In this document: positions 1 to 29,339 of the stretch, piece after piece
How the letters are laid out: each line of letters begins with the position of its first letter
How positions within the stretch are numbered: the stretch's first letter is position 1
IMG/VR virus record: IMGVR_UViG_3300031539_000220
Span: 1-29,339 of that record
DNA: 29,339 nucleotides
Source of the DNA: a virus
Direction: 5' to 3' (one strand)
Notes under the pieces: model-generated
Told to the model about the DNA's origin: nothing
What the model saw: the letters and a program-made list of their open reading frames with translations, nothing else
Database searches by the model: none
Translations under genes and position numbers: made by a program

Positions 1-550
1 GACAAATTAACGAATTAAATGTTGTATTTCCTCCTGCTCCACCATAGCCACCAGATTGAGTTGTTCCAGTTGCAGCAGCTCCAGAAGCTCCTCCTGCTGA
101 AATTGCAATACTTTCCGTTGCTCCTAAAATAGATGCTGGAACAGTTATATTTAAATAACTTCCACCTCCTCCACCACCACCACCACTTTTTGTTGTAGCT
201 GCCGTGTTATTTTTTCGTCCACCACCACCACCACCGCCTGCTCCGAAAATTTGGATGTTTACGGATTTTGCATTGGCTGGTTTTGTCCAAGTTCCGCTTG
301 CTGTGAAAATTTGGACATCAGCAGTTGAAATTCCTCCTGAACCCGTTGCTCCTTGAATTCCAGTCGCTCCTGTGCTACCAACGCCTGTGGCTCCGGTCGA
401 ACCAGCATTTCCTTGCAAACCCGTGGCTCCAGTAGAACCAGTAGCTCCGACATCACCTTGCAAGCCAGTTCCGGTCGCCCCTGTTGCTCCAGTTGCGCCA
501 ATGCCTGCGATGTCGAGCTTGCCAGTAAATGGATTAAATTTGCAAGCCAT
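1..550 (-). CDS. Collagen-like, glycine-rich tail fibre protein (partial, C-terminus beyond window)
   Basis: The frame starts at ATG 548-550 and stays open to the left edge, giving about 183 visible residues. After a short N-terminus ([17 protein letters not shown]) there is a run of roughly 55 residues of Gly-X-Y triplets (GATGATGATG, then blocks such as [11 protein letters not shown]), the hallmark of a collagen-like trimeric stalk. Next comes a segment with [20 protein letters not shown], followed by polyglycine stretches, an arrangement common in phage tail-fibre tips or adhesins. Its position as the last visible gene of the head-tail module, one base after the 86-residue gene, fits a virion appendage that contacts the host surface. 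The fold assignment is inference from composition; the C-terminal receptor-binding part is missing. Confidence 0.75.
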
Positions 551-19833: not shown

Positions 19834-20158
19834 CTGCGATGCTCTGCTTGGTTTGGAATATTCCTTTTAAGTCCGGGTTCTCTGCCATGATCTTTCGAGC
19901 ATAGAAAGCTCGGAAGTCATTACTCAATTTATAATCATCCTCCGAATCGGTTGTCATGTAGTAGTTCCACCGGAGAACCTCGTACAGCATTCCGATTCCG
20001 ATTTTGCTTTCCTCCCGGCGTTGCCGAAACTGACGAGCAAGGGTGACCAGAGCATCGTAAACATGAGGATTAGCAGCATGGAATCGGACGAATCGTTCAG
20101 GGATTGAATCACCTTTAACTTCATTAATCGGCTCGAAATTAAACTCGTTTTGTTCCAT
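19823..20158 (-). CDS. Conserved hypothetical phage protein (111 aa)
   Basis: This 111-residue protein has RFVRFHAANPHVYDALVTLA, then ESKIGIGMLYEVLRWNYYMT, and KLSNDFRAFYARKIMAENPD. It has the look of a widespread small phage protein with an F-H-x-x-N-P-x-V-Y helix and an I-G-I-G-M-L-Y/F-E-V-L-R-W core. The likely fold is all-helical. It overlaps the initiator start by 11 bases, placing it at the head of the replication set. The function is unknown; a DNA-binding or recruitment role is speculative. Confidence 0.75.
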   Translation of the reverse strand: MEQNEFNFEPINEVKGDSIPERFVRFHAANPHVYDALVTLARQFRQRREESKIGIGMLYEVLRWNYYMTTDSEDDYKLSNDFRAFYARKIMAENPDLKGIFQTKQSIADEI

Positions 20159-20342
20159 ATTTTTTTAAGATGTGTACCAACGATTCAAGTGCCTCTTCCC
20201 GTTTCCAACCAAGACCTTCCTCAATGACCGAATGCCACTTGCCATCGATCTCGACTTCGTAATCCCACCGGGCGCAATCATCTTGATGACGTGGAACACA
20301 TCGCAGAGGGAACCCCATAAAGTCATTATGTTTTTCAATCAT
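20139..20342 (-). CDS. Small hypothetical protein (67 aa)
   Basis: This 67-residue protein starts MIEKHNDFMGFPLRCVPRHQ and contains CARWDYEVEIDGKWHSVIEE followed by a helix. It is coupled at both ends: a 4-base ATGA overlap with the nuclease stop and a 20-base overlap with the 111-residue gene. No known motif. Confidence 0.65.
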   Translation of the reverse strand: MIEKHNDFMGFPLRCVPRHQDDCARWDYEVEIDGKWHSVIEEGLGWKREEALESLVHILKKYGTKRV

Positions 20343-21337
20343 TTCTTTTTGTCCTCAATAAGGCGTGTTGATCCATTGCCAGTAATGACATCTTCGTTAG
20401 ACGGGAAGTAATCCCGTGCTGCTGCCCACTTGCGGAAGTCTTCCGCGCCAATGTTGCCGAATAACTCGGCAATGTCATGGTAGGTCGCACCAGTTGCCTG
20501 TGCCGCTTGAGCAACGGCATTCGGGCCGAATTCTTCTTTGCCTTTGGCTTTTGATAACTTCCAACCGGGAACCTCTTCGCCTCGGTCCAGTCGATCCTTC
20601 GCTTCTTGTTTGCCCCAGTCCCACAATTCTTTTTTGAAAATGTTACAGGCTTTGAGGAATTTGCCCAACTTCTCTGGTTCGGCGAGTTGCGCTTTCAGGG
20701 TATCAATTGATACCTCGTTGTTGACCACCCGGAGCGTTTGCTCGGCAGGCTTGACAATCTGTAGGCAAGTAGACTTCTTGGCGCACCATGAGCAATACTG
20801 GCAGGCGGATGGTTGTTTGTTCGGGTCGTTGTATGCCGCGATGATTCCCTCCACGATCTCCGTAGCGGAATCCATCGTGAAATGGTGAGTAACAACCTTG
20901 CCTTGATCGCAGTAAACCAAATGGCAGGTCCACTCTGGCTCAAAGAATCGGGTCATGTTGCCAAGAGCATATGCAGCCATTTGGGACTCGTACTCATAGA
21001 TTTGCCCTGTTTTTAAATCCAGCGAGGTGCGAATATCTGCCGCCCGGATGTCCTCGGTCCCAACATGGTCCATGCCGGGAGTTTTGACCCACAACTCTGA
21101 CTCGCGAGTCTCAAGGACTGTCTGGTCAGGGATGACGCTTTTAACAAGGTTAATGGCAGTCTGCGCGGAGGTGCGGTCCTTGTCGTTGTCGAGTTCCTGC
21201 AAACAATCCTCGCCTTGAATCAACCGCCGCACAACGGAGTCGATCTTGGTTCCCCTGCTTGCCGCCGGGGATGTACCCCCGGCGGACTCATAGCATGGAC
21301 AGGCTTGCAATTTAGGAAGTGCGCTATGTCGGATCAT
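20339..21337 (-). CDS. PD-(D/E)XK nuclease with Cys cluster (Cas4/RecB-like)
   Basis: This 332-residue protein has a nuclease core with GTEDIRAADIRTSLDLKTGQ (acidic residues, D107 and K109 of the D-x-K motif) and YESQMAAYALGN as the following QxxxY-type helix. A four-Cys set (C179, C182, C185, C191 in ACQYCSWCAKKSTC) resembles the Fe-S-binding C-terminus of Cas4/AddB-type enzymes. C13 and C15 near the N-terminus may contribute. The C-terminal half (from ~200) is a helical extension with GWKLSKAKGKEEFG. It probably resects DNA ends for the RecT-like annealing protein that precedes it (ATGA overlap). DUF2800 is a similar family. Confidence 0.82.
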   Translation of the reverse strand: MIRHSALPKLQACPCYESAGGTSPAASRGTKIDSVVRRLIQGEDCLQELDNDKDRTSAQTAINLVKSVIPDQTVLETRESELWVKTPGMDHVGTEDIRAADIRTSLDLKTGQIYEYESQMAAYALGNMTRFFEPEWTCHLVYCDQGKVVTHHFTMDSATEIVEGIIAAYNDPNKQPSACQYCSWCAKKSTCLQIVKPAEQTLRVVNNEVSIDTLKAQLAEPEKLGKFLKACNIFKKELWDWGKQEAKDRLDRGEEVPGWKLSKAKGKEEFGPNAVAQAAQATGATYHDIAELFGNIGAEDFRKWAAARDYFPSNEDVITGNGSTRLIEDKKK

Positions 21338-22164
21338 TTCTTTGCTCCGGTTGCCGCGCCAACGAACCCAGCGGGATTCGCGATGATGCGTTTGCGATAC
21401 TCGTTGTCCTCAAGATCGCGCCATGTTTTGCCAATGTCGATTTGCCCCTTGGCAACAAGGAATGCGTTGACTGGCAGTTCATGGGTTCCCAGCACAGGCT
21501 CCAGATCGGCGATCCATGATCCATCCTCGGCAACAATTTTGCTTTCCACTACCACGATCTCATCTGGCTTTACCTCTTCAGCCTTGATCTCGATCACCTC
21601 TGGTTCTGGCTCGACCTTCTTCGCTTTCTTCGCAACAGGTGCAGGAGCAGGAGCAGGAGCAGGTGCTGGCGCAGATGGCGCGAAGTCTTGAACTTCTTCA
21701 GGAGTGTAGAAACCCTGAAGCACCGCAGGGTAGACTCCACGAACTCCATCCGAGATCACGCGAGCGCGAAGCATCTGGCGAGGATACTTTTTCCAGTTGT
21801 CCTTGCCACCAAGACCTGCCGCCTTTGCGCGGGTCATGTCCCAATCGACTTTGAGTGATCCACCAGCAGGGTGGCTGAATGTGCCTGCCACACACTCATC
21901 AGTATACTCACTCCATTCGACCTTGCCTCCAGCAGACTGGAATCGAGCGAGGATGGCATCTGCCTTCAATGCTGGTCTGCCCTGAATGATGTGATACTCC
22001 GCAGCAACTGTGCCGGGATGCCTGCCCTCTGCCTGCGCGACCAGCATGAGTGCTACTGCCTCCTCGGTCTTGCGAAGCCCGAAAAGACCGGACTTGACAA
22101 TGTGGTTTGCCATGATCTCCAGTTCGGTGACTGAAGCGGGTTGGGTTGTTGTTAATTGCGACAT
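21334..22164 (-). CDS. RecT-like single-strand annealing protein
   Basis: This is a 276-residue protein from ATG 22162-22164 (MSQLTTTQPASVTELEIMAN). The core contains GRPALKADAILARFQSAGGK, DMTRAKAAGLGGKDNWKKYP and RARVISDGVRGVYPAVLQGF, a pattern shared with RecT-family annealing proteins of freshwater phages. After it comes an Ala-Pro-rich linker ((AP)6-type) and an acidic tail, ending VGAATGAKK. It pairs with the nuclease downstream by ATGA coupling, as in RecE/RecT systems. The start follows ATAAATACATT, identical to another leader in this window. Confidence 0.75.
   Translation of the reverse strand: MSQLTTTQPASVTELEIMANHIVKSGLFGLRKTEEAVALMLVAQAEGRHPGTVAAEYHIIQGRPALKADAILARFQSAGGKVEWSEYTDECVAGTFSHPAGGSLKVDWDMTRAKAAGLGGKDNWKKYPRQMLRARVISDGVRGVYPAVLQGFYTPEEVQDFAPSAPAPAPAPAPAPVAKKAKKVEPEPEVIEIKAEEVKPDEIVVVESKIVAEDGSWIADLEPVLGTHELPVNAFLVAKGQIDIGKTWRDLEDNEYRKRIIANPAGFVGAATGAKK
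21638..21675 (-). repeat. Ala-Pro coding microrepeat
   Basis: A GCAGGA-type hexamer repeats about five times within the RecT-like gene, encoding alternating Ala and Pro in the linker between core and tail. It is a typical slippage-prone linker repeat. Confidence 0.7.
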
Positions 22165-22171
22165 AATGTAT

Positions 22172-22492
22172 TTATTGGTTGATGTGGTTGCGTAGTGTTT
22201 CGTTGTAGATTTGAGCGGAGAGAAGAGCATTCTGATGCTGGAGTCTCTCTAACTCTTGTTCTTGGTTTTCCTGTGGCAGCACGTCATCGTCCGGGAAAAT
22301 TCCAGCGTAGACGGGTGCATTCACAGGAGTATTGTTCTCTGCCTGCGATTGATTTTGCAGGTAGAAATCTTTGATGTGAGGGACGCTTTTTTTTGGGTAG
22401 GTAAGAGTCCTTGTTTCTCTGTATGTTTCCTTGCTTGTGGAGCAAGCCTGAACGGCAAGTGCCGTGATGATGGTTGCTATCTGTAGTTTCAT
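22172..22492 (-). CDS. Putative small lipoprotein (106 aa; spanin-like)
   Basis: The start is placed at ATG 22490-22492, giving 106 residues. MKLQIATIITALAVQACSTS is a short signal peptide with a basic K2, a hydrophobic core and a VQAC lipobox (Cys17), a weak but recognisable lipoprotein pattern. The mature part is polar, and the end forms a helix (QEQELERLQHQNALLSAQIY). It follows the 42-residue gene with an ATGA overlap and precedes the RecT-like start by a few bases. Together with the nearby single-TM proteins it could be the outer-membrane half of a spanin-type lysis pair, but this is inference. Confidence 0.6.
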   Translation of the reverse strand: MKLQIATIITALAVQACSTSKETYRETRTLTYPKKSVPHIKDFYLQNQSQAENNTPVNAPVYAGIFPDDDVLPQENQEQELERLQHQNALLSAQIYNETLRNHINQ

Positions 22493-22617
22493 TTTTTCTC
22501 CTTTGTCTGGGGGTAGACTGTGCTGCGAAATTTCGGAGTCTTGTTTTTGCAAGCCTGAATCAAGCGGATGTACGCTTCCGGGGGCAAGCAAGTGTGGATG
22601 GTCTTCTCAATGCCCAT
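22489..22617 (-). CDS. Small hypothetical protein (42 aa)
   Basis: This 42-residue protein starts MGIEKTIHTCLPPEAYIRLI and ends STVYPQTKEKK. It is flanked by a 2-base gap to the 48-residue gene and an ATGA overlap to the lipoprotein gene, consistent with a coupled cassette. It has two Cys residues and a basic tail, and no known motif. Confidence 0.6.
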   Translation of the reverse strand: MGIEKTIHTCLPPEAYIRLIQACKNKTPKFRSTVYPQTKEKK

Positions 22618-22619
22618 GG

Positions 22620-22766
22620 TTAGTCCTCCTCCTCGTTGAATTCGCGCCACCTCTGGTCGCGCTCCCGGCGTTTGCGTTTGTAGTCCTCAAACTCGTCGAG
22701 GATGCTACGTTGTCCTGCCCAGTAACTGGCGATCATGGCAATTAAGCTGATGACGATGTATTCCAT
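22620..22766 (-). CDS. Small membrane-anchored coiled protein (48 aa)
   Basis: This 48-residue protein starts MEYIVISLIAMIASYWAGQR. Residues 3-18 form one membrane segment, followed by a highly charged helix (KRKRRERDQRWREFNEEED). TTTCAGGAGGACAAAAATAATG gives it one of the few clear Shine-Dalgarno signals here. It starts in a TAATG overlap with the 39-residue gene. It is compatible with a minimal inner-membrane spanin or phage membrane protein but short for a full spanin. Confidence 0.65.
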   Translation of the reverse strand: MEYIVISLIAMIASYWAGQRSILDEFEDYKRKRRERDQRWREFNEEED

Positions 22767-22885
22767 TATTTTTGTCCTCCTGAAAGAGTGAGCGTCAGAA
22801 GCAGAAGAACTGCCATTGGCGCGAAGGCAATCAACGCCTCCCAGCAATGCTGGAGCGTGACGATTAGTGGTACTTGTATTTCCAT
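22766..22885 (-). CDS. Small membrane protein (39 aa), holin-like size
   Basis: This 39-residue protein starts MEIQVPLIVTLQHCWEALIA. Residues ~17-34 (AFAPMAVLLLLTLTL) form one strongly hydrophobic segment with a short polar SGGQK end. It starts in the first codons after the CTATGACACAA element (site C) and is followed by a TAATG junction. Holin-like size and context make a lysis role possible, but one membrane segment is weak evidence. Confidence 0.6.
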   Translation of the reverse strand: MEIQVPLIVTLQHCWEALIAFAPMAVLLLLTLTLSGGQK

Positions 22886-22911
22886 TAGAACTTCAATTTA
22901 ACCCAAGCAAG

Positions 22912-22950
22912 TTGGGTGGTCAATATCTTTTTTTTGCTGTTGTGTCATAG
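22912..22950 (-). promoter_or_regulatory. Repeated phage regulatory element, copy C
   Basis: On the minus strand this reads CTATGACACAA then AGCAAAAAAAAG...GATATTGACC and ACCCAA, matching the copies at 24557-24598 and 26300-26339. The CTATGACACAA overlaps the LuxR-type gene stop. ATGACA could serve as a -35 and the downstream part as a -10. It precedes the four tiny lysis-like genes. Confidence 0.6.
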
Positions 22951-23196
22951 CCACTCATTCGTCGTCAGACCCTTTGCCAAAGCCCATCGGCAGACATCGG
23001 CGGTATTGTGAAAACCAAATTTCCGGTGCAGAGATTCGCGATGTTTTTCGACTGTCTTGATGCTGATTTCGAGTGCGATTCCAACCTGTGCGTTGGTCAA
23101 TCCGCTGGCAATTAATCCTGCTACTTGCTTTTCCCGTGGACTGGCTACTGGAGCAGTTTTCGGGCAAGCGAATAATTTTTGTATGAGATTTTTCAT
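22945..23196 (-). CDS. LuxR/GerE-type HTH transcription regulator
   Basis: From ATG 23194-23196 the protein has 83 residues. It begins MKNLIQKLFACPKT and then gives SPREKQVAGLIASGLTNAQV, EISIKTVEKHRESLHRKFG and TADVCRWALAKG. This is the full LuxR C-terminal HTH, with the S/TPRE opening and the K-T-V-x-x-H recognition helix. There is no sensory domain, so it is a stand-alone DNA-binding regulator like small GerE-type proteins. It lies between two repeated regulatory elements and may bind them or control the early region. Confidence 0.85.
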   Translation of the reverse strand: MKNLIQKLFACPKTAPVASPREKQVAGLIASGLTNAQVGIALEISIKTVEKHRESLHRKFGFHNTADVCRWALAKGLTTNEWL

Positions 23197-23207
23197 GTGG
23201 AAAAGTG

Positions 23208-23226
23208 TGGGGCGAGGGATTGAACC
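23208..23226 (-). other. T-arm-like hairpin downstream of the DUF932-like gene
   Basis: On the minus strand GCGAGG-TTCAATC-CCTCGC is a perfect 6-bp stem with a TTCRANY-type 7-nt loop, the tRNA T-arm shape. It lies between the DUF932-like gene stop at 23243 and the LuxR-type start at 23196. No complete tRNA can be built around it, so it is probably a processing or terminator-like structure. Confidence 0.5.
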
Positions 23227-23242
23227 TCGCTCCGATTGATCT

Positions 23243-24022
23243 TCAGTTGAGCAGGTACTGCTCCGACAAATTCCAGAGTTGCTTGTTGATCTTGAAGTCG
23301 GTTGTCGGTGCGGTGACTCGGCGAATGCCAGAACCGGGGCGACCTTTGACGAGGTTCTCTTGAACACGATTGAAGGTGTGCCAGAGGTTCGTTCCAGAGT
23401 CGTTGTATCGGCGAGCGCGATTCAGGTAGAACAGGCGAGTGTTCCACTCGTAGATATCTTTTCGTTCGGAATCCTCGGTAGGTTCGTCGTAGCGAAGCTT
23501 GAGCGCATCGACCAGATACTGCTTCTGTGCCGCCTCGGTGAGTTCCTTGTTCTTGAACGCATGAACACGCTCGGAAAGGAAAGGGACATTGTCGCGCAGG
23601 CGAGTTGCCGCTTGAATGAAGTCCGATACATCAACTCTACGATGGTGAATCTTGATCGTCTCAAAGATGTCTCCACCGACGAGTCCGTTGAGGCAGGCGA
23701 AGACTTGCAAGCCAACGGAGAGTTGAGCGGAGCTAGTTCCATCATGCGAGTTGATCAACACAAACTCTGGTGATGCCTCGCCAGCAATCGTGATGTTGTC
23801 GCGATGACCGAAACGGATCAAGTGCTTTTGAAATCCCTTATTCTCGTCCTTCCTCGCTTTGGCGAGTTGGATTTGACGAGGGATGTAGCCGTTCTCCTCG
23901 AAAGAGGAAACGATCTGCTGGGTGCTGATGAATCCGTAGCGTTCGCTGCGGGTGGATGAAGCATGGGTAGCCTCGATGGGGTTAGTGTTCACGATTTCGA
24001 GTGATGGGATGATGATGTTCAT
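23243..24022 (-). CDS. DUF932-like protein
   Basis: This 259-residue protein has ERYGFISTQQIVSSFEENGY, then QLAKARKDENKGFQKHLIRF, GEASPEFVLINSHDGTSSAQ and a later helical region (AAQKQYLVDALKLRYDEPTE). This matches the DUF932/DUF945-type family of phage and plasmid proteins; similarity is from memory of the pattern, not a search. The role is unproven; related genes occur in anti-restriction or early accessory regions. The start at 24022 follows AAAACCAAAAAA, with tandem hairpins just upstream. Confidence 0.7.
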   Translation of the reverse strand: MNIIIPSLEIVNTNPIEATHASSTRSERYGFISTQQIVSSFEENGYIPRQIQLAKARKDENKGFQKHLIRFGHRDNITIAGEASPEFVLINSHDGTSSAQLSVGLQVFACLNGLVGGDIFETIKIHHRRVDVSDFIQAATRLRDNVPFLSERVHAFKNKELTEAAQKQYLVDALKLRYDEPTEDSERKDIYEWNTRLFYLNRARRYNDSGTNLWHTFNRVQENLVKGRPGSGIRRVTAPTTDFKINKQLWNLSEQYLLN

Positions 24023-24048
24023 TTTTTTGGTTTTCTTGTTGATGGTTG

Positions 24049-24088
24049 GGTTCTGGGAGGAACAGAACCGGGAGGATCGGACTCCCGG
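24049..24088 (-). other. Two overlapping perfect 7-bp hairpins
   Basis: GGTTCTG-(7 nt)-CAGAACC (24049-24069) and CCGGGAG-(7 nt)-CTCCCGG (24068-24088) share two bases and so compete weakly. On the minus strand the second loop is TCCGATC, close to a tRNA T-loop. They lie between the 128-residue gene (24098) and the DUF932-like gene (24022), where a terminator or attenuator is expected; no U-run follows. Confidence 0.55.
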
Positions 24089-24097
24089 CGAGATTGG

Positions 24098-24484
24098 TTA
24101 GATGTCGAGGTTAAGATTGATGAATTGAATCGGGTCGCTGCAATGCTCGCCAAGAAGTCGAACAATCAGTTTCTCTCCTTCAATAAGGACTGCTTGTCCG
24201 TCGAACAATTGAACTGCTTCAGCAATTTCTTTGAGCTTTGCGGCGTGTGCTTCTGCTTTTCCGGAATAGTCAGCGCAAAGAACAGCAGGTTCTTGATATG
24301 ACCAGACAGTTTGATGTCCATTTGCAACTGCGCGATTATGTGCCGCCTCTTGGTCTTCATTATATTTAGCAGCATATCCGCGAGCAGTACGAATTGTGAT
24401 GCGTTGTGCATACTTGCTGAATCCTGCTCCACGAACTGTCTGCCCGTGCTTGAGAGTGATGAGTTGGTTTTCTGTAGCGTTCAT
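24098..24484 (-). CDS. Hypothetical protein (128 aa)
   Basis: From ATG 24482-24484 (MNATENQLITLKHGQTVRGA) the product has 128 residues, with GYAAKYNEDQEAAHNRAVAN in the first half and a helical AAKLKEIAEAVQLFDGQAVL segment. No known motif. An earlier in-frame start at 24586 lies inside the regulatory element and gives an unlikely N-terminus. It is the first gene after copy B of the regulatory element. Confidence 0.65.
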   Translation of the reverse strand: MNATENQLITLKHGQTVRGAGFSKYAQRITIRTARGYAAKYNEDQEAAHNRAVANGHQTVWSYQEPAVLCADYSGKAEAHAAKLKEIAEAVQLFDGQAVLIEGEKLIVRLLGEHCSDPIQFINLNLDI

Positions 24485-24517
24485 TTTTGTAGTTTCTATT
24501 TTTGGTTTGGTTCGTTG

Positions 24518-24556
24518 GCGGGTTGCCTTCGATGGAGATGACAATATCGAACCCGC
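24518..24556 (-). other. Leader hairpin before the 128-aa gene
   Basis: GCGGGTT (24518-24524) pairs perfectly with AACCCGC (24550-24556). CGAT and ATCG words inside extend a possible inner stem. It lies between copy B of the regulatory element and the start at 24484, and would fold in the 5' leader of the transcript. Confidence 0.45.
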
Positions 24557-24598
24557 TTGGGTTATGCAACAAGAATTTTTGCCCATGTTGTGTCATAG
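24557..24598 (-). promoter_or_regulatory. Repeated phage regulatory element, copy B
   Basis: On the minus strand this reads CTATGACACAA, then CATGGGCAAAAATTCTTG and ACCCAA about 30 bases apart, matching copies A (26300-26339) and C. The similarity to copy A extends past ACCCAA into GGGTTCGATAT versus AGCTTCGATAA. It probably drives the 128-residue gene. Confidence 0.65.
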
Positions 24599-24645
24599 AA
24601 AAAATTCTTTTAAATTTCTATTGACAACCGCAGAACCCGATAGAA

Positions 24646-24816
24646 TCAGGCTTCGCAGGCTACCGCAACTTTTCGCGGCCTGCCACCCTTCATTCCATTG
24701 AGTGCTGCCGCCAATCTTTTTTTATCACTCGTTGCGCTTCCTCCACGCTTTCCGATCTCGGAAAGGAATCGGCGTACAGGCGAGGGAAGAGGATCATTTT
24801 TCGTTTTTGTGTTCAT
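24646..24816 (-). CDS. Small basic GGRPRK protein (56 aa)
   Basis: From ATG 24814-24816 (MNTKTKNDPLPSPVRRFLSE) the protein has 56 residues, with LSEIGKRGGSATSDKKRLAA and NGMKGGRPRKVAV. The GGxGxSA and GGRPRK words are characteristic of a small DNA-binding-like bacterial/phage protein family, the latter resembling an AT-hook. It overlaps the upstream 49-residue gene by 23 bases. It could be a small regulator; no direct evidence. Confidence 0.7.
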   Translation of the reverse strand: MNTKTKNDPLPSPVRRFLSEIGKRGGSATSDKKRLAAALNGMKGGRPRKVAVACEA

Positions 24817-24943
24817 TAGATTTTTTGTGTGCTGACCAATCAATGGCAGCAAAGTTTTCTTGATACTGCTTGGACTGCGTATCAGTCCGAGGTTTGTCAC
24901 CCTTGCCGTTCCTTGACCATTCGTTGTCCTTGACAGTCTTCAT
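24794..24943 (-). CDS. Small hypothetical protein (49 aa)
   Basis: This 49-residue protein starts MKTVKDNEWSRNGKGDKPRT and continues QSKQYQENFAAIDWSAHKKS. The NGKGDKPR motif is shared by many tiny phage and bacterial proteins. It starts in a TGATG overlap with the 94-residue gene and overlaps the GGRPRK gene. Function unknown. Confidence 0.7.
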   Translation of the reverse strand: MKTVKDNEWSRNGKGDKPRTDTQSKQYQENFAAIDWSAHKKSNEHKNEK

Positions 24944-25227
24944 CAACTTTTGGGTTCTGACTGGTAATCGTCGAACCTGACGATATTGTCGGGTGCTACA
25001 GTTGTGGTCTCGCCACTTTTGGCGACTTCTCGGAGGTGCAGTTGCTCCAGAAGCGCACTCGCAACCATCAGGCGGAAACTGAATAGTTTGGTGTTGTGCA
25101 TCAAATCGTGAAACACATCGTCCTTGCTGATCTTCTCGAAATCGATGCCAGCAAGAACTGACTCGACAGAGTTCCTAACTTCTTCCTCCGGGGTTCCCGG
25201 AGCTTCGTTGTTGTTGTCTTTATTCAT
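24943..25227 (-). CDS. Small acidic hypothetical protein (94 aa)
   Basis: This 94-residue protein begins with an acidic linker (MNKDNNNEAPGTPEEEVRNS) and has a helical core (FHDLMHNTKLFSFRLMVASA, LLEQLHLREVAK). It overlaps the upstream 74-residue gene by eight bases and the next gene by one. No family recognised. Confidence 0.7.
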   Translation of the reverse strand: MNKDNNNEAPGTPEEEVRNSVESVLAGIDFEKISKDDVFHDLMHNTKLFSFRLMVASALLEQLHLREVAKSGETTTVAPDNIVRFDDYQSEPKS

Positions 25228-25444
25228 TTATTTTTTCTCTTTGGTCCAGCATGCAGTCCGCATCGCGGAACGATAGCTCCGCTACAAGACGCGAATCTGC
25301 TTGGGAAAATTTATCACTCGCTCGGTAGCCTTGCAAGGCGGAACCTGCGAACCAATCGCGCATGGACATGCCAGAATTCGGCCTGATCGGCGGATGCTGG
25401 CTTCCCTGAACGGGAAATGCTGGATGGTTCTTGCTGGACGGCAT
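25220..25444 (-). CDS. Small conserved phage protein with start codon inside a hairpin (74 aa)
   Basis: This 74-residue protein contains GMSMRDWFAGSALQGYRASD and ends LSFRDADCMLDQREKINE, a pattern common in short phage proteins of unknown function (N-terminal Pro-rich part, then SxRDWFAGxAL). The ATG (25442-25444) lies in one arm of a 10-bp hairpin at 25436-25471, so initiation may be regulated. A later ATG (at 25369) would avoid the hairpin but truncate the Pro-rich N-terminus. Confidence 0.75.
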   Translation of the reverse strand: MPSSKNHPAFPVQGSQHPPIRPNSGMSMRDWFAGSALQGYRASDKFSQADSRLVAELSFRDADCMLDQREKINE

Positions 25445-25471
25445 GAAGTGTTTTTACACGGCATGCCGTCC
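25436..25471 (-). promoter_or_regulatory. Long hairpin sequestering a start codon
   Basis: GGACGGCATG (25436-25445) and CATGCCGTCC (25462-25471) are perfect 10-bp inverted repeats. An inner GTGT-TTTT-ACAC stem gives a continuous rod with one small internal loop. The start codon of the 74-residue gene (25442-25444) lies in the 3' arm on the mRNA. It could act as a translational switch or an RNA-processing site. Confidence 0.6.
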
Positions 25472-25533
25472 AATGCAAATGCGTCAGTCGCAGCACCCGC
25501 AGCAAGGATGATGGTTGGTGGTTGCGTCTGGGG

Positions 25534-25797
25534 TTACTTCTCCTGCTGGCGCAGGGAAAGAAGGTGCTGGAGCAGGTACTCCTCGACATTGGAGAGGGCT
25601 TGCCGTTGCTCGATGCGGTGATCCTGTGCCTTGGACCATGCTTCCGGGTCTTGGACATAGTAGTCACGAGCGTTAAACTCGATCTTGCCGAGTGCGTCCT
25701 GCGCGGCCCCGACAGCCTCGTATGCGGCTTCGTATCCGTTCCACAGGTCTTTGTAGCCTGTGCCGTTCAAGTGGACTGTTGGTGCTGTGATGTTCAT
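25534..25797 (-). CDS. Small hypothetical protein (87 aa)
   Basis: From ATG 25795-25797 (MNITAPTVHLNGTGYKDLWN) the protein has 87 residues. It is mostly helical, with GYEAAYEAVGAAQDALGKIE and a C-terminal coiled-coil-like RIEQRQALSNVEEYLLQHLL segment. The leader CAACTAAAACTACCATGAAC is identical to that of the next gene upstream at 26062. It is followed by an 89-base spacer without a clear gene before 25444. Confidence 0.7.
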   Translation of the reverse strand: MNITAPTVHLNGTGYKDLWNGYEAAYEAVGAAQDALGKIEFNARDYYVQDPEAWSKAQDHRIEQRQALSNVEEYLLQHLLSLRQQEK

Positions 25798-25811
25798 GGT
25801 AGTTTTAGTTG
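25792..25811 (-). repeat. 20-bp duplicated start-codon leader, copy 1
   Basis: The 20 bases (minus strand CAACTAAAACTACCATGAAC) are identical to 26057-26076. They contain the stop codon of the upstream gene and the start of the downstream one, so it is a duplicated gene junction. Confidence 0.85.
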
Positions 25812-26062
25812 TTGGTTTGTTTGTGGTAAGCGGCAAGTAGTCGTTCGGCGGCATAGCACCAATGACGGCAATCTGAAGAGAATCCATCACGCATATCTTT
25901 ATCCGAATAAAAGTATGCGTCCTCGATCAATTCAGGTAGGTTCACATCGTCTGTTGCAACCCATACCGATTTGGAGTTGGAGCGGATTGCAGCAGGAGTT
26001 GGAAGGTCACGCTCGGCGTGATCGTCGTAGAATTTACGAGGTAGCTGGATTAGCGAGTTCAT
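25805..26062 (-). CDS. Small hypothetical protein (85 aa)
   Basis: From ATG 26060-26062 (MNSLIQLPRKFYDDHAERDL) the protein has 85 residues, continuing LPTPAAIRSNSKSVWVATDD and NLPELIEDAYFYSDKDMRDG with a Cys-His-Trp-Cys segment near the end. An F-Y-x-D-H-x-x-R-D-L-P start is familiar from small phage proteins, but no function is known. Its stop lies inside the 20-bp repeat shared with the other leader. Confidence 0.7.
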   Translation of the reverse strand: MNSLIQLPRKFYDDHAERDLPTPAAIRSNSKSVWVATDDVNLPELIEDAYFYSDKDMRDGFSSDCRHWCYAAERLLAAYHKQTNN

Positions 26063-26076
26063 GGTAGTTTTAGTTG
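26057..26076 (-). repeat. 20-bp duplicated start-codon leader, copy 2
   Basis: This is identical to 25792-25811. It contains the stop of the 68-residue gene and the ATG at 26062. Confidence 0.85.
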
Positions 26077-26276
26077 AGGTTGAATTTTTGGCGGAAGGCT
26101 TGGTAGCCGTAGCAGAGATCGCCAGCGAAGCTGTAGACTCCGAGGTCGCGACGACCATCGCTATACCTGCACCAGCAATATTGCCACTTGGTTTCTCCAA
26201 GGATGAACTCTTCCTCTCCCGTGGCTTGGGAGAGGTATTCTACATACAGGTCGTTGTCGGTTTGGTTTGTTGTCAT
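26070..26276 (-). CDS. Small hypothetical protein (68 aa)
   Basis: This 68-residue protein starts MTTNQTDNDLYVEYLSQATG. It has a Trp/Tyr/Cys-rich core (KWQYCWCRYSDGRRDLGVYS) and ends RQKFNLN. It is the first gene after copy A of the regulatory element, about 24 bases beyond its ACCCAA box. No family recognised. Confidence 0.65.
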   Translation of the reverse strand: MTTNQTDNDLYVEYLSQATGEEEFILGETKWQYCWCRYSDGRRDLGVYSFAGDLCYGYQAFRQKFNLN

Positions 26277-26299
26277 GGCAGAGAGATTATCGAAGCTGG

Positions 26300-26339
26300 T
26301 TGGGTTTGCAAGAATTATTTTTTGACTCTTGTGTCATAG
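26300..26339 (-). promoter_or_regulatory. Repeated phage regulatory element, copy A
   Basis: On the minus strand this reads CTATGACACAA, then GAGTCAAAAAATAATTCTTG and ACCCAA. ATGACA is a near match to a -35, with TTCTTG 17 bases on. It is shared with copies B and C, and it probably starts the early transcript at the 68-residue gene. Confidence 0.65.
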
Positions 26340-26381
26340 TAAAAACATTTATGCTTGACGCTTGATCAAAAACCCAAGCAG

Positions 26382-26416
26382 TCCGCAGACCCGCATGAAT
26401 GCTCACTCTGCGGGTG
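26382..26416 (-). terminator. Possible terminator or processing hairpin after the initiator-like tRNA
   Basis: Two alternative perfect 7-bp stems overlap here: ACCCGCA with TGCGGGT (26390-26416), and CCGCAGA with TCTGCGG (26382-26412 region). On the minus strand the stem is followed a little later by GGGTTTTTG. It would end or process the late transcript just beyond the tRNA CCA. Confidence 0.35.
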
Positions 26417-26488
26417 GTTGCAGGACCGGGAATCGAACCCGGAACTTCAGGTTATGGGCCTGACGAGATACCCTTTCTCTATCCTGCG
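26415..26488 (-). tRNA. Initiator-like tRNA-fMet (anticodon CAU)
   Basis: A complete 74-nt cloverleaf with encoded CCA. The acceptor CGCAGGA/TCCTGCA has a C1.A72 mismatch, and the D-arm GAGA/TCTC has A11:U24. Both are bacterial initiator hallmarks (formylase recognition; exclusion from elongation). The anticodon arm is TCAGG-CCCATAA-CCTGA, so the anticodon is CAU, but position 33 is C instead of U and only two of the three conserved G:C pairs are present (A29:U41). The T-arm is CCGGG-TTCGATT-CCCGG. tRNA-Met initiator genes are rare in phages. Confidence 0.85.
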
Positions 26489-26492
26489 GAAA

Positions 26493-26636
26493 TTATTTTT
26501 TGCGCTTCTTCGCCTTCGCCTTGCGTTGTACTGCGTAGGCAATCGCCACCGATTGCTTCACCGATTTTCCTGACTTTACTTCCGAGGAAACATTGCGATC
26601 AAAGCAATTTTGTGAAGCGCATTTTCGTAGTGGCAT
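26493..26636 (-). CDS. Small basic protein (47 aa)
   Basis: This 47-residue protein starts MPLRKCASQNCFDRNVSSEV, continues KSGKSVKQSVAIAYAVQRKA and ends in a lysine/arginine-rich tail. The K-x-G-K-x-x-K-Q-S/A-V-A-I-A core is a familiar tiny phage-protein motif of unknown function. The stop lies four bases before the initiator-like tRNA, and the start is one base after the large polyvalent gene stop. Confidence 0.7.
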   Translation of the reverse strand: MPLRKCASQNCFDRNVSSEVKSGKSVKQSVAIAYAVQRKAKAKKRKK

Positions 26637-26637
26637 A

Positions 26638-29339
26638 CTATTTCTTTTTTACACCCTTGTTCATTTTTTTCAAGAGAGAATCCTGCATCTCAACTGCCTG
26701 ATCGTAATCGGTAGCGTAGATGTCAGTACGAGGTTCGTATTCGCCTTCAAATTTCGGATCAAGAACCATCATCACAACATCGGGTTCTCCGTTGTTAAAT
26801 TCTTTGAATGTTTCCTTGTCCCAATCTTCCATATATTGAGCTTGCTCTTCATTCCACGGAGTTCTTGCCGCCTCAACAAATCCATGCGCTCCATAAAACT
26901 CTGGAAGGATTGTATCAAATGCATCGAGCTTTTTACCTCCAGCAGCAATTGCTGCTTCAATTACGCTTCGACCACTTCCTTTTTCCATACTGAAGACAGA
27001 AACAATGTCTCCATCTGGTTTGACGGCAAATCCAGATTTGCCAGATTCTGACATGAATAATTTCATGTTTTGATAATCTTTGGGGTCGTAAACATAAACT
27101 GCCGCTCCATATTTGGATTCTTCTTTGCTTTGCGTAAGTGCATCCGCAAATTTTTGTGCAGATGGAGTGTCTGTCGAATCAAGTTCCAAAAACTTAACAG
27201 GTGGAAGTCCATTATTCCTATACATGGTTGCCAGCTTGCGCCCTGCCTTCCATTCAGAAATGTATTTTACCCCAAGATTCTTTTTGGACTTTGGTTTTAG
27301 AACCCGTAACTCTCCGCCATCTCCTCCGCTTTTTCGCGAGTAAGACCAGAGTGCCTTTTCATTGCCCGTCCGATTTCGTCGAGCGGTTGTGACTGCGACA
27401 TACTGCCTGAACTTTTGCTTTTCTTTTCCAGTAAACCCTCCAGCACCTTCCTGCTGCCGGGCTTGATCTGAATCCCCTTCTTGAGCTTCTGGTCGTGTAG
27501 TTGTTGTGCGGTCATTTTTAATTTTTTCTAATACTTCATCGATTCGTTTTTGCGAAACGCCTTTCTCTCGCGCAACGCCAATTGCGGCGTTTGCGTAGTC
27601 TGGTGCTTCATCGTCCTCGTACCCATCTGCGTCAGACGAGTCAAGATTATCTTGGTCGGCTTTAACCTTGGCGGTTTCGTAAAGTCGTTTTTCAGCATAC
27701 CACAGAACTGCCTGTAGGTCTGCCATAGTTAGCCCTGCGTATTTTGGATCACTCTTGAGTTCGTCAAGCATTAAACCAAATATCTCACGAATGAAATTTC
27801 GTTCTGTCGGGCCTGATGGTGCTTCCTTCTGACCATCCAGATATTTTGCAAGACCATTGCCAGACTTGCGGAACTCTTCACCAGTTTCTGTCTGGTTCAT
27901 CAATTGACGCAATTCAGGTTTCATCGATGCCTTCTGGATTGCCACAGAAAGGTCTTCAAGACTCATCTGCGAGATGTCTTGCTTAATCATCTGATCCATC
28001 CGCGCCTTGTCTTCAGGAGTTAATTTCTGGACTGCCTCCTGCAAGCGATCAGTTGCCTGCTTGGTCAATTCTGGATTCAATTCAACCAATGTGCCAGTCC
28101 ACCTTCCCCATGTACGGACTAACCAACGATCCATCGTTAAAGCGTCAAAAAGACCATACAGATTTGAGAAGAATCCATTGCCAATCTTCGGACCAAGGAT
28201 TGCCGATCCACGAACATTCGTGTCCGAAAACTCACCACCCGGTGACAGGTCTTTACTCAACCGAGAAATCTCACCAACTGTGAAAGCGGTCTGCATGAAC
28301 TTACGAGTGTTCTCCATGCCCCACTCCTTGGTGAGTTTATTGAACAGGTCCAGACCCTCGTTGATCGCTTTCTGCGCCTGCCCAGCTTCAATGTTTGTGG
28401 GCATCTTTCCAGACTTGCGGTATTGCCGATAGACTCGTTCAGCCAACTCGAAATTTTTATCAACCTTCAATCCGTTCGATGTAACTGCCAATGCCCATGT
28501 GAAGGCGAATCGAGCGTTTTCATCGGTTGCGATTTCAGGGAACAGCAACGACATCACGCCAAGTGCCTGCTTGGTCTTTTCGTCATACCATCCGATAGCA
28601 TTTGGATTTTGCTCCAAAGCAATCAACGCATCCTTAAACCCAACGCGAGCGAGATACTCGATTGCCTCTGCGGTTCTCTCGGAGATTGTGACCCCAGCTT
28701 TCTCTGCTGCTTCCATGACTCGGCGTTGCAAGTCCATCTTGAAGTCTCGTCCTTTTTTCCAAGGTTGCGAGTTAGCCACTTTGATTGCATTAGAAATTAC
28801 AGACTGCTCGTCCACCGATTCAGGTACTTCAATGCCAGTCGAGCGAAGCTCTGTGTCGGCTACCTCTTCTTCAGCATCTGCTTCAGTTTTTGCAACAGGG
28901 ATTTCTTGTTTCACTTCAACCTGCTGTTTTGGAATTTCTGGAGTCTTGGCAGCTTCACGAATAGGTGCTTCTACTCCCTGCAATGCTTGTCTCAAAATTC
29001 CAAATTCTCCAGCCCCTTTAGCAATAGCCTCTGGAAGCTCGACCCCTTGCAAAGGCCGAATCATCTCTGTGGCGCGAGGATAGAGTTTAGGTGGTTCGAC
29101 TCCCTGCATTCCTTGCGGGGATTGCTCTGGCGGCATGAAGCGAATGTCAGGAAAGTTCGTTTGGAACCTCTGCGAAAGAGGAATTACATTGCCTTCGTCA
29201 TCGTAGGTTACAGGGTCGGCGGATTTGATTTGATTGGGGTTGAAAGTTAAATAGTAAACTCCAGTGTCAAAGTCCCCATCCAAAGCGTCTCTCTTGGTGT
29301 CCTCTATTCTGACAGCATCTACTCCAGAATTTCGAAAAT
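26638..29339 (-). CDS. Large polyvalent virion-type protein with GNAT-like C-terminal domain (partial, N-terminus beyond window)
   Basis: The frame is open to the right edge, giving about 899 visible residues; the true start is outside. Near the beginning the segment YYLTFNPNQIKSADPVTYDD...VIPLSQRFQTN...DIRFMPP is typical of the end of ADP-ribosyltransferase-like or MuF-type toxin modules in giant phage proteins. A charged helical middle follows. The last ~200 residues contain SGKSGFAVKPDGDIVSVFSM, GGKKLDAFDTILPEFYGAHG and a PDVVMMVLDP end, a GNAT-like acetyltransferase pattern. Such chimeric proteins are often packaged and injected. Residues before the start of this window are needed to name the first domain. 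Confidence 0.65.
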   Translation of the reverse strand, partial: FRNSGVDAVRIEDTKRDALDGDFDTGVYYLTFNPNQIKSADPVTYDDEGNVIPLSQRFQTNFPDIRFMPPEQSPQGMQGVEPPKLYPRATEMIRPLQGVELPEAIAKGAGEFGILRQALQGVEAPIREAAKTPEIPKQQVEVKQEIPVAKTEADAEEEVADTELRSTGIEVPESVDEQSVISNAIKVANSQPWKKGRDFKMDLQRRVMEAAEKAGVTISERTAEAIEYLARVGFKDALIALEQNPNAIGWYDEKTKQALGVMSLLFPEIATDENARFAFTWALAVTSNGLKVDKNFELAERVYRQYRKSGKMPTNIEAGQAQKAINEGLDLFNKLTKEWGMENTRKFMQTAFTVGEISRLSKDLSPGGEFSDTNVRGSAILGPKIGNGFFSNLYGLFDALTMDRWLVRTWGRWTGTLVELNPELTKQATDRLQEAVQKLTPEDKARMDQMIKQDISQMSLEDLSVAIQKASMKPELRQLMNQTETGEEFRKSGNGLAKYLDGQKEAPSGPTERNFIREIFGLMLDELKSDPKYAGLTMADLQAVLWYAEKRLYETAKVKADQDNLDSSDADGYEDDEAPDYANAAIGVAREKGVSQKRIDEVLEKIKNDRTTTTRPEAQEGDSDQARQQEGAGGFTGKEKQKFRQYVAVTTARRNRTGNEKALWSYSRKSGGDGGELRVLKPKSKKNLGVKYISEWKAGRKLATMYRNNGLPPVKFLELDSTDTPSAQKFADALTQSKEESKYGAAVYVYDPKDYQNMKLFMSESGKSGFAVKPDGDIVSVFSMEKGSGRSVIEAAIAAGGKKLDAFDTILPEFYGAHGFVEAARTPWNEEQAQYMEDWDKETFKEFNNGEPDVVMMVLDPKFEGEYEPRTDIYATDYDQAVEMQDSLLKKMNKGVKKK
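27297..27515 (-). CDS. Possible small overlapping gene inside the polyvalent gene (72 aa)
   Basis: A same-strand frame within the polyvalent gene encodes MTAQQLHDQKLKKGIQIKPG and ends RHSGLTREKAEEMAESYGF. The C-terminal x-G-L-T-x-E-K-A-x-E-M-x-x-x-G-F pattern looks like a genuine small-protein tail, and the host gene is low-complexity here. Either a true overlapping gene or a chance frame; kept at low confidence. Confidence 0.3.
   Translation of the reverse strand: MTAQQLHDQKLKKGIQIKPGSRKVLEGLLEKKSKSSGSMSQSQPLDEIGRAMKRHSGLTREKAEEMAESYGF

Follow-up and report, generated by a model that had tools for sequence, protein, structure and literature searches.

What is the role of an 11-nucleotide sequence that recurs three times in a virus record, always on the same strand and always ahead of the same hexamer? 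In IMG/VR record IMGVR_UViG_3300031539_000220 (29,339 bases, the whole of which is called here the window), the element CTATGACACAA occurs exactly three times, each time on the minus strand (26329-26339, 24588-24598 and 22940-22950; copies A, B and C), and each copy is followed by ACCCAA (26300-26305, 24557-24562 and 22912-22917, respectively). The first-pass annotation of this DNA had noted both features but placed them 28 to 31 bases apart; the distance is 22 to 25 nucleotides (nt), or 33 to 36 nt from start to start. We consider it probable that the three copies belong to an early regulon of a group of tailed phages, in which sigma70 promoters are combined with an upstream activator site and an operator in the promoter spacer. 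This proposal rests on sequence, geometry, conservation and co-occurrence, from which we infer where transcription begins, that the promoters are activated and repressed, and which two proteins bind.

Proposed element promoters in the window and its relatives

Taken by itself, the repeat in the window proves nothing. Sixteen 11-mers (counted as strand pairs) were present at least three times in the window, whereas 20 dinucleotide shuffles gave 3.65 on average and 11 at most; of 40 shuffles, 3 likewise had a triple 11-mer with a common 6-mer downstream. The CTATGACACAA triple is within chance expectation in the window alone, and relatives were therefore examined. The window carries terminase, RecT-like, exonuclease-like and DUF932 genes. 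Neither the terminase nor the 402-amino-acid (aa) protein of the virion region had a match in the phage collection (0 in 50,697 records), the DNA of positions 20000-29339 had none in the same collection, and the GTDB genomes searched with the terminase yielded no relative. Protein searches of IMG/VR led to relatives of up to about 63 kilobases (kb). The phage group of the window measures about 60-63 kb and has no isolate in the phage collection searched.

Composite sites were then counted in 13 records, comprising 12 relatives read in pieces and the window (G000, G001, G002, G005, G008, G010, G011, G014, G015, G017, G018, G019 and G020). In all, 22 were found, in 8 of the 13 records (G000, G001, G002, G008, G010, G011, G014 and G015), compared to 1 in the reversed-sequence control of all 13; the scan gave none in G005, G017, G018, G019 and G020. 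The first-pass annotation had made its case depend on copies in relatives, and these exist. Judged from the sequences, the three-copy observation is real, and it is the relatives that decide the matter.

Downstream of each copy of CTATGACACAA, after a gap of 16-18 nt, comes a sigma70-like core (TTGNNN, 16 or 17 nt, TANNNT), which escaped the first-pass annotation on account of this position beyond the motif. The copy A core (26284-26311, minus strand, like those of B and C) consists of TTGCAA (26306-26311), a 16-nt spacer starting with ACCCAA and TAATCT (26284-26289); the copy B core (24541-24569) of TTGCAT (24564-24569), a 17-nt AACCCAAGCGGGTTCGA spacer and TATTGT (24541-24546); and the copy C core (22895-22923) of TTGACC (22918-22923), a 17-nt spacer and TAAATT (22895-22900). 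ACCCAA abuts the -35 hexamer in A and C and lies one base further on in B. The hexamers are weak, since only the copy C core reached the level of a 9-of-12 consensus scan. The element is centred at about -57 from the predicted start in copy A and at about -59 in copy B, and copy C contains the TGA stop codon (22945-22947) of the GerE-type gene described below.

The pattern NTATGACAMAN was searched in the 13 records with gaps of 0-60 nt to a downstream core, TTG and TANNNT being required by the scan. It occurred 42 times, and 23 occurrences (22 distinct sequences, confined to the same eight records) had a TTGNNN-15..18-TANNNT core downstream, whereas the other 19 had no core at any gap from 0 to 60. 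At the 23 sites, as at the three copies in the window, -35 and -10 hexamers stand at ordinary spacing, the promoter spacers being 16 or 17 nt, and ACCCAA lies beside the -35 hexamer in 22. The gap between element and -35 hexamer was 7 (three sites), 16 (eight), 17 (five), 18 (five) or 19 nt (two), which, assuming a start 7 nt after the -10 box, puts the element centres either within -56 to -59 or on -47 and nowhere between. These two positions are about one helical turn apart, as in a class I-like activator site, a phasing that would suit an activator in contact with RNA polymerase. Degenerate elements were seen by eye at the expected places (gap 7 in G015; promoter B of G008) and were left out of the counts. 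In unfiltered alignments of promoter A (A2, eight sequences) and promoter B (A3, nine sequences), the invariant columns of both include TTG, ACCCAA and TANNNT; TATGACA..A is invariant in the promoter A alignment, and in that of promoter B it is broken by G005, in addition to one base in G008. G018 carries two operator promoters with TTGACG and TTGACA as -35 hexamers and no TATGACAMAA element there.

Taken together, the sequences indicate that the three copies are real and share one promoter design. The earlier description of a promoter or operator element is supported, as the element is conserved, has a fixed geometry and stands ahead of early genes. Its suggestion of a phage-modified or alternative sigma promoter is not supported, each copy having a sigma70-like core. 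In the mechanism that we propose, the RNA polymerase of the host, carrying its principal factor of the sigma70 type, would use the TTGNNN-16/17-TANNNT core, and an activator bound at TATGACAMAA, near -57 or, in another class that is nearer by a helical turn, near -47, would compensate for weak -35 hexamers such as TTGCAA, TTGATA and TTGACC. A repressor at the spacer sequence CCCAA-N5-TTGGG, of which some promoters have a perfect copy and others conserve one half, would block polymerase.

The GerE-type candidate activator and competing explanations

The most likely activator would be the phage's own stand-alone helix-turn-helix protein of the GerE/LuxR type (83 aa; 22945-23196, minus strand). 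It matched PF00196 with an E value of 1.2e-14 (54.1 bits versus a cut-off of 23.5). GerE was the only domain found in the 83 aa and no autoinducer-binding domain was detected there; from its sequence, the protein is not a LuxR quorum-sensing receptor. Its structural model (predicted local distance difference test score, pLDDT, 84.9) has helices at residues 20-30, 35-42, 46-60 and 65-74 in a typical helical fold, and its relatives in the PDB include EsrB, FixJ, NarL and GerE, with 1fse among the entries. The gene is present in all eight element-bearing records, at 61-74% identity; a protein at 41-50% identity is found in G017, G018 and G019, records without an element promoter, and G005 and G020 have no such gene. 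Promoter B of G005 has lost TATGACAMAA and kept TTG, ACCCAAGC and TANNNT, so that this record, without both the candidate activator gene and its site, represents a natural experiment. As the GerE-type gene lies in the promoter B operon, its product would act back on the promoter that drives it. The GerE relatives obtained by searching occupy 36 loci, among which L241-L250 have the element; L251, a fragment, covers promoter C alone, and there the element is lost.

Several observations weigh against this proposal. The 25 remaining GerE loci (L252-L276) have no element before such a promoter; L252 and L253 encode a GerE-type protein at 61% identity, and these whole contigs contain one-mismatch background matches only. 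Inspection of the repeats in L252 and L254, which bear a GerE-type gene and lack the element, revealed no equivalent element. Promoter C is without the element in G008, G010 and G015 despite an intact GerE-type gene. The eight element-bearing records are akin and therefore not independent, the copy A element adjoins a transfer RNA (tRNA) gene in a stretch that is well conserved throughout (77% mean identity), and many A and B sites preserve the palindrome's right half poorly. The 83-aa protein is the best candidate activator of the element promoters, and the link is suggestive, not proven, because L252 and L253 carry GerE relatives without the element. The view of the first-pass annotation that the element may be an operator for the LuxR-type protein accordingly describes a possible arrangement.

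The absence of strict coupling between gene and element, in L252 and L253 and at the promoter C copies without it, is also what would be expected if the element were the site of a host regulator and the phage borrowed host activation, an explanation that we regard as possible, if less probable. Against it, G005 lacks both the element and the GerE-type gene yet keeps the core promoter. Moreover, the pattern of element, TTG and ACCCAAGC gave four unrelated-looking matches in genome_contigs (84,980 species genomes), in a scan that required the phage core and left free-standing host sites outside. Quite unlikely is the reading of CTATGACACAA and ACCCAA as two boxes recognised by an alternative or phage sigma factor or by a phage RNA polymerase: the GerE-type protein does weakly match a PHROG family annotated 'sigma factor', but element and ACCCAA stand at variable distances (the hexamer plus either 7 or 16-19 nt), and the interval between TTG and TANNNT is always 16 or 17 nt, as is usual for sigma70.

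It should also be noted that ATG ACA CAA/AAA (Met-Thr-Gln/Lys) starts a reading frame at every site, of 16 codons at both A and C, as if CT-ATG-ACA-CAA opened a short leader peptide or small open reading frame (ORF). This explanation was rejected as very improbable: the frames vary from 3 to 100 codons, the changes of gap between 16, 17, 18 and 19 nt break the frame, none of the 23 sites has an AGGAG-like sequence within 12 nt upstream, and CT-ATG-ACA-CAA lies upstream of the predicted transcript start. Finally, a chance repeat of the 11-mer, compatible with the lack of significance in the window alone, is refuted by the conservation and geometry across the relatives and has a negligible probability. 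Among the literature matches listed, none dealt with the element; of 38 papers containing the 11-mer or its core, the 10 listed seemed from their titles to be unrelated.

The spacer palindrome and a small basic protein

In the sigma70 promoters with an upstream activator site proposed here, ACCCAA is the left half of a palindrome, CCCAA-N5-TTGGG, that fills the spacer between the -35 and -10 hexamers. At copy C the palindrome is perfect (CCCAACTTGCTTGGG, 22902-22916, minus strand) and forms a putative operator. Perfect copies occur at nine promoters, one each in G000, G001, G002, G008, G010, G011 and G014 and two in G018, and G011 has two extra perfect copies away from promoters. With one mismatch allowed, the 13 records contain 39 such places versus 22 in the reversed control. 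Since many A and B sites preserve the left half alone to a good degree, the reading as a putative operator is good for promoter C and for G018 and weaker elsewhere. A literature text search for the spellings of the palindrome found none.

In viral_contigs, CCCAA-N5-TTGGG was found in 18 stretches, and the control palindromes AAACCC-N5-GGGTT and AACCAC-N5-GTGGT in 1 and 19, respectively. A special enrichment of the palindrome in unrelated phages was rejected on account of the second control; spacer palindromes being common, no enrichment is claimed outside this phage group. The 19 stretches with AACCAC-N5-GTGGT (L222-L240) are from unrelated viruses and many look promoter-like, one sequence being repeated in near-identical contigs. 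G017 (L137) and G019 (L146), which are without the ACCCAA palindrome, have another palindrome, ATGGGCAATACTACCCAT, over the presumed -10 box upstream of DUF932, as if operators differed from one phage clade to another.

Which protein might bind the spacer palindrome? The GerE-type protein is disfavoured, as a complete or nearly complete palindrome is present in records without a GerE match (G005 and G021-G025, some of them fragments). Another candidate is a basic protein of 56 aa ending in GGRPRK (24646-24816, minus strand), whose gene ends 79 nt ahead of the -35 hexamer of copy B. Such proteins, of 50-56 aa, are encoded in 10 of the 13 records (G000, G001, G002, G005, G008, G010, G011, G014, G015 and G018), which are the same ten that have TTG-ACCCAA promoters with a -10 box, and were not found in G017, G019 and G020; in all ten, between 70 and 105 nt separate the end of the gene from an operator promoter downstream of it. 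Besides that in the window, loci of the protein or of a similar segment include L117:11944-12093, L141:17550-17705 and L182:8053-8466. A profile of the protein matched 5 of 19 further or repeated records (G004, G005, G006, G012 and G024) and gave no match in G021, G022, G023 and G025 despite their palindromic promoter, some of these records being fragments. In G024, a distant GC-rich virus record, a similar segment forms one protein with an AcrIC5 domain (Pfam PF22147, E value 3.8e-19), and this AcrIC5-like fusion lies in the operon of a CCCAA-N5-TTGGG promoter. The fold prediction was poor (two helices, pLDDT 63.7), and the proteins of the phage-group members had no family match above the curated cut-off. 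The GGRPRK-type protein is thus a lead only as candidate operator binder. That it represents a new class of Aca-like phage operator-binding regulator and would form, with the GerE-type activator, a two-protein early switch is a doubtful extension of the proposal.

Gene context and comparison with known systems

Directly after promoter A lies an ORF of 68 aa (26070-26276, minus strand) without a Pfam family, whose ATG is 7 nt past the TAATCT of copy A and which is predicted to be leaderless or nearly so. At 6 of the 23 sites an ATG follows the -10 box after 6-7 nt, so that the messenger RNA may be leaderless there. Promoter B is followed by an ORF of 128 aa (24098-24484, minus strand), then by the DUF932 gene (23243-24022) and, after it, the gene of the GerE-type protein, and promoter C by an ORF of 39 aa with a hydrophobic stretch (22766-22885, minus strand) and then by the RecT-like (21334-22230) and exonuclease-like (20339-21337) genes.

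The leader sequence that the first-pass annotation saw in common between copies A and B is also found in relatives and consists of a GGC-N5-GCC hairpin followed by GACGAACCAAACC. The hairpin, identified by eye from the alignments, lies at 24517-24527 (minus strand) in the promoter B leader; other members have it too, and several show it in their A leaders. Its loop-proximal bases seem, by eye, to co-vary (GGCG/CGCC, GGCA/TGCC). At 24050-24089 (minus strand) there is, between two genes, a sequence resembling a hairpin, GTTC(C/T)TCCCAGAAC (or GTTCTCCCCAGAAC), and after it a AACCATCAACA-like sequence before the ATG; the arrangement recurs upstream of DUF932 in G001, G002, G010, G014, G015, L252 and L253, and the genes at this type of sequence have no obvious Shine-Dalgarno sequence. 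A stem-loop resembling a tRNA T-arm, of the form GGGGCGAGG-TTCAAT-CCTCGCCCC, precedes the GerE-type gene (23208-23234) and is kept in G002, G008, G010 and G011, standing also before DUF932 in G008 and G011. Between the tRNA-Met gene and promoter A, CTTGGGTTTTTGATCAAGCGTCAAGCA (26340-26380, minus strand) is conserved about as strongly as the element and may be a terminator or other regulatory site.

These results provide a testable regulatory map for a phage group of about 60-63 kb and name two candidate regulators. If the GGRPRK protein does bind the spacer palindrome, it would add a type of regulator that one record associates with an anti-CRISPR-like domain.

Several phages encode proteins that activate sigma70 promoters, among them MotA of T4, Ogr/Delta of P2 and C/Mor of Mu. 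As in those systems, the sigma70 polymerase of the host would be brought to a set of phage promoters by a small phage protein that acts at a fixed upstream box; unlike them, the candidate here has a GerE/LuxR helix-turn-helix, the box is another one and takes two helically phased positions, and the spacer holds an extra palindrome. GerE of Bacillus subtilis works with sigma-K. It is likewise a stand-alone helix-turn-helix protein of similar size (74 versus 83 aa) with no receiver or ligand domain, whereas the protein described here is phage-borne and would serve sigma70-type promoters, and the sequences give no evidence that the two boxes are alike. According to PMC10901769, operators of the Aca/AcrIIA15 type are inverted repeats upstream of the -35 hexamer and between the -35 and -10 hexamers, bound by a small repressor. 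The promoters of this group share with that description an inverted repeat between the hexamers, here a putative operator; they differ from it in that their upstream element is no copy of the spacer palindrome and that the window has no recognised acr gene. According to PMC6456758, quorum-sensing receptors of the LuxR type encoded by phages bind host autoinducers, and the 83-aa protein resembles the receptors described there in being a phage-encoded LuxR-type helix-turn-helix protein, but it consists of the DNA-binding domain only.

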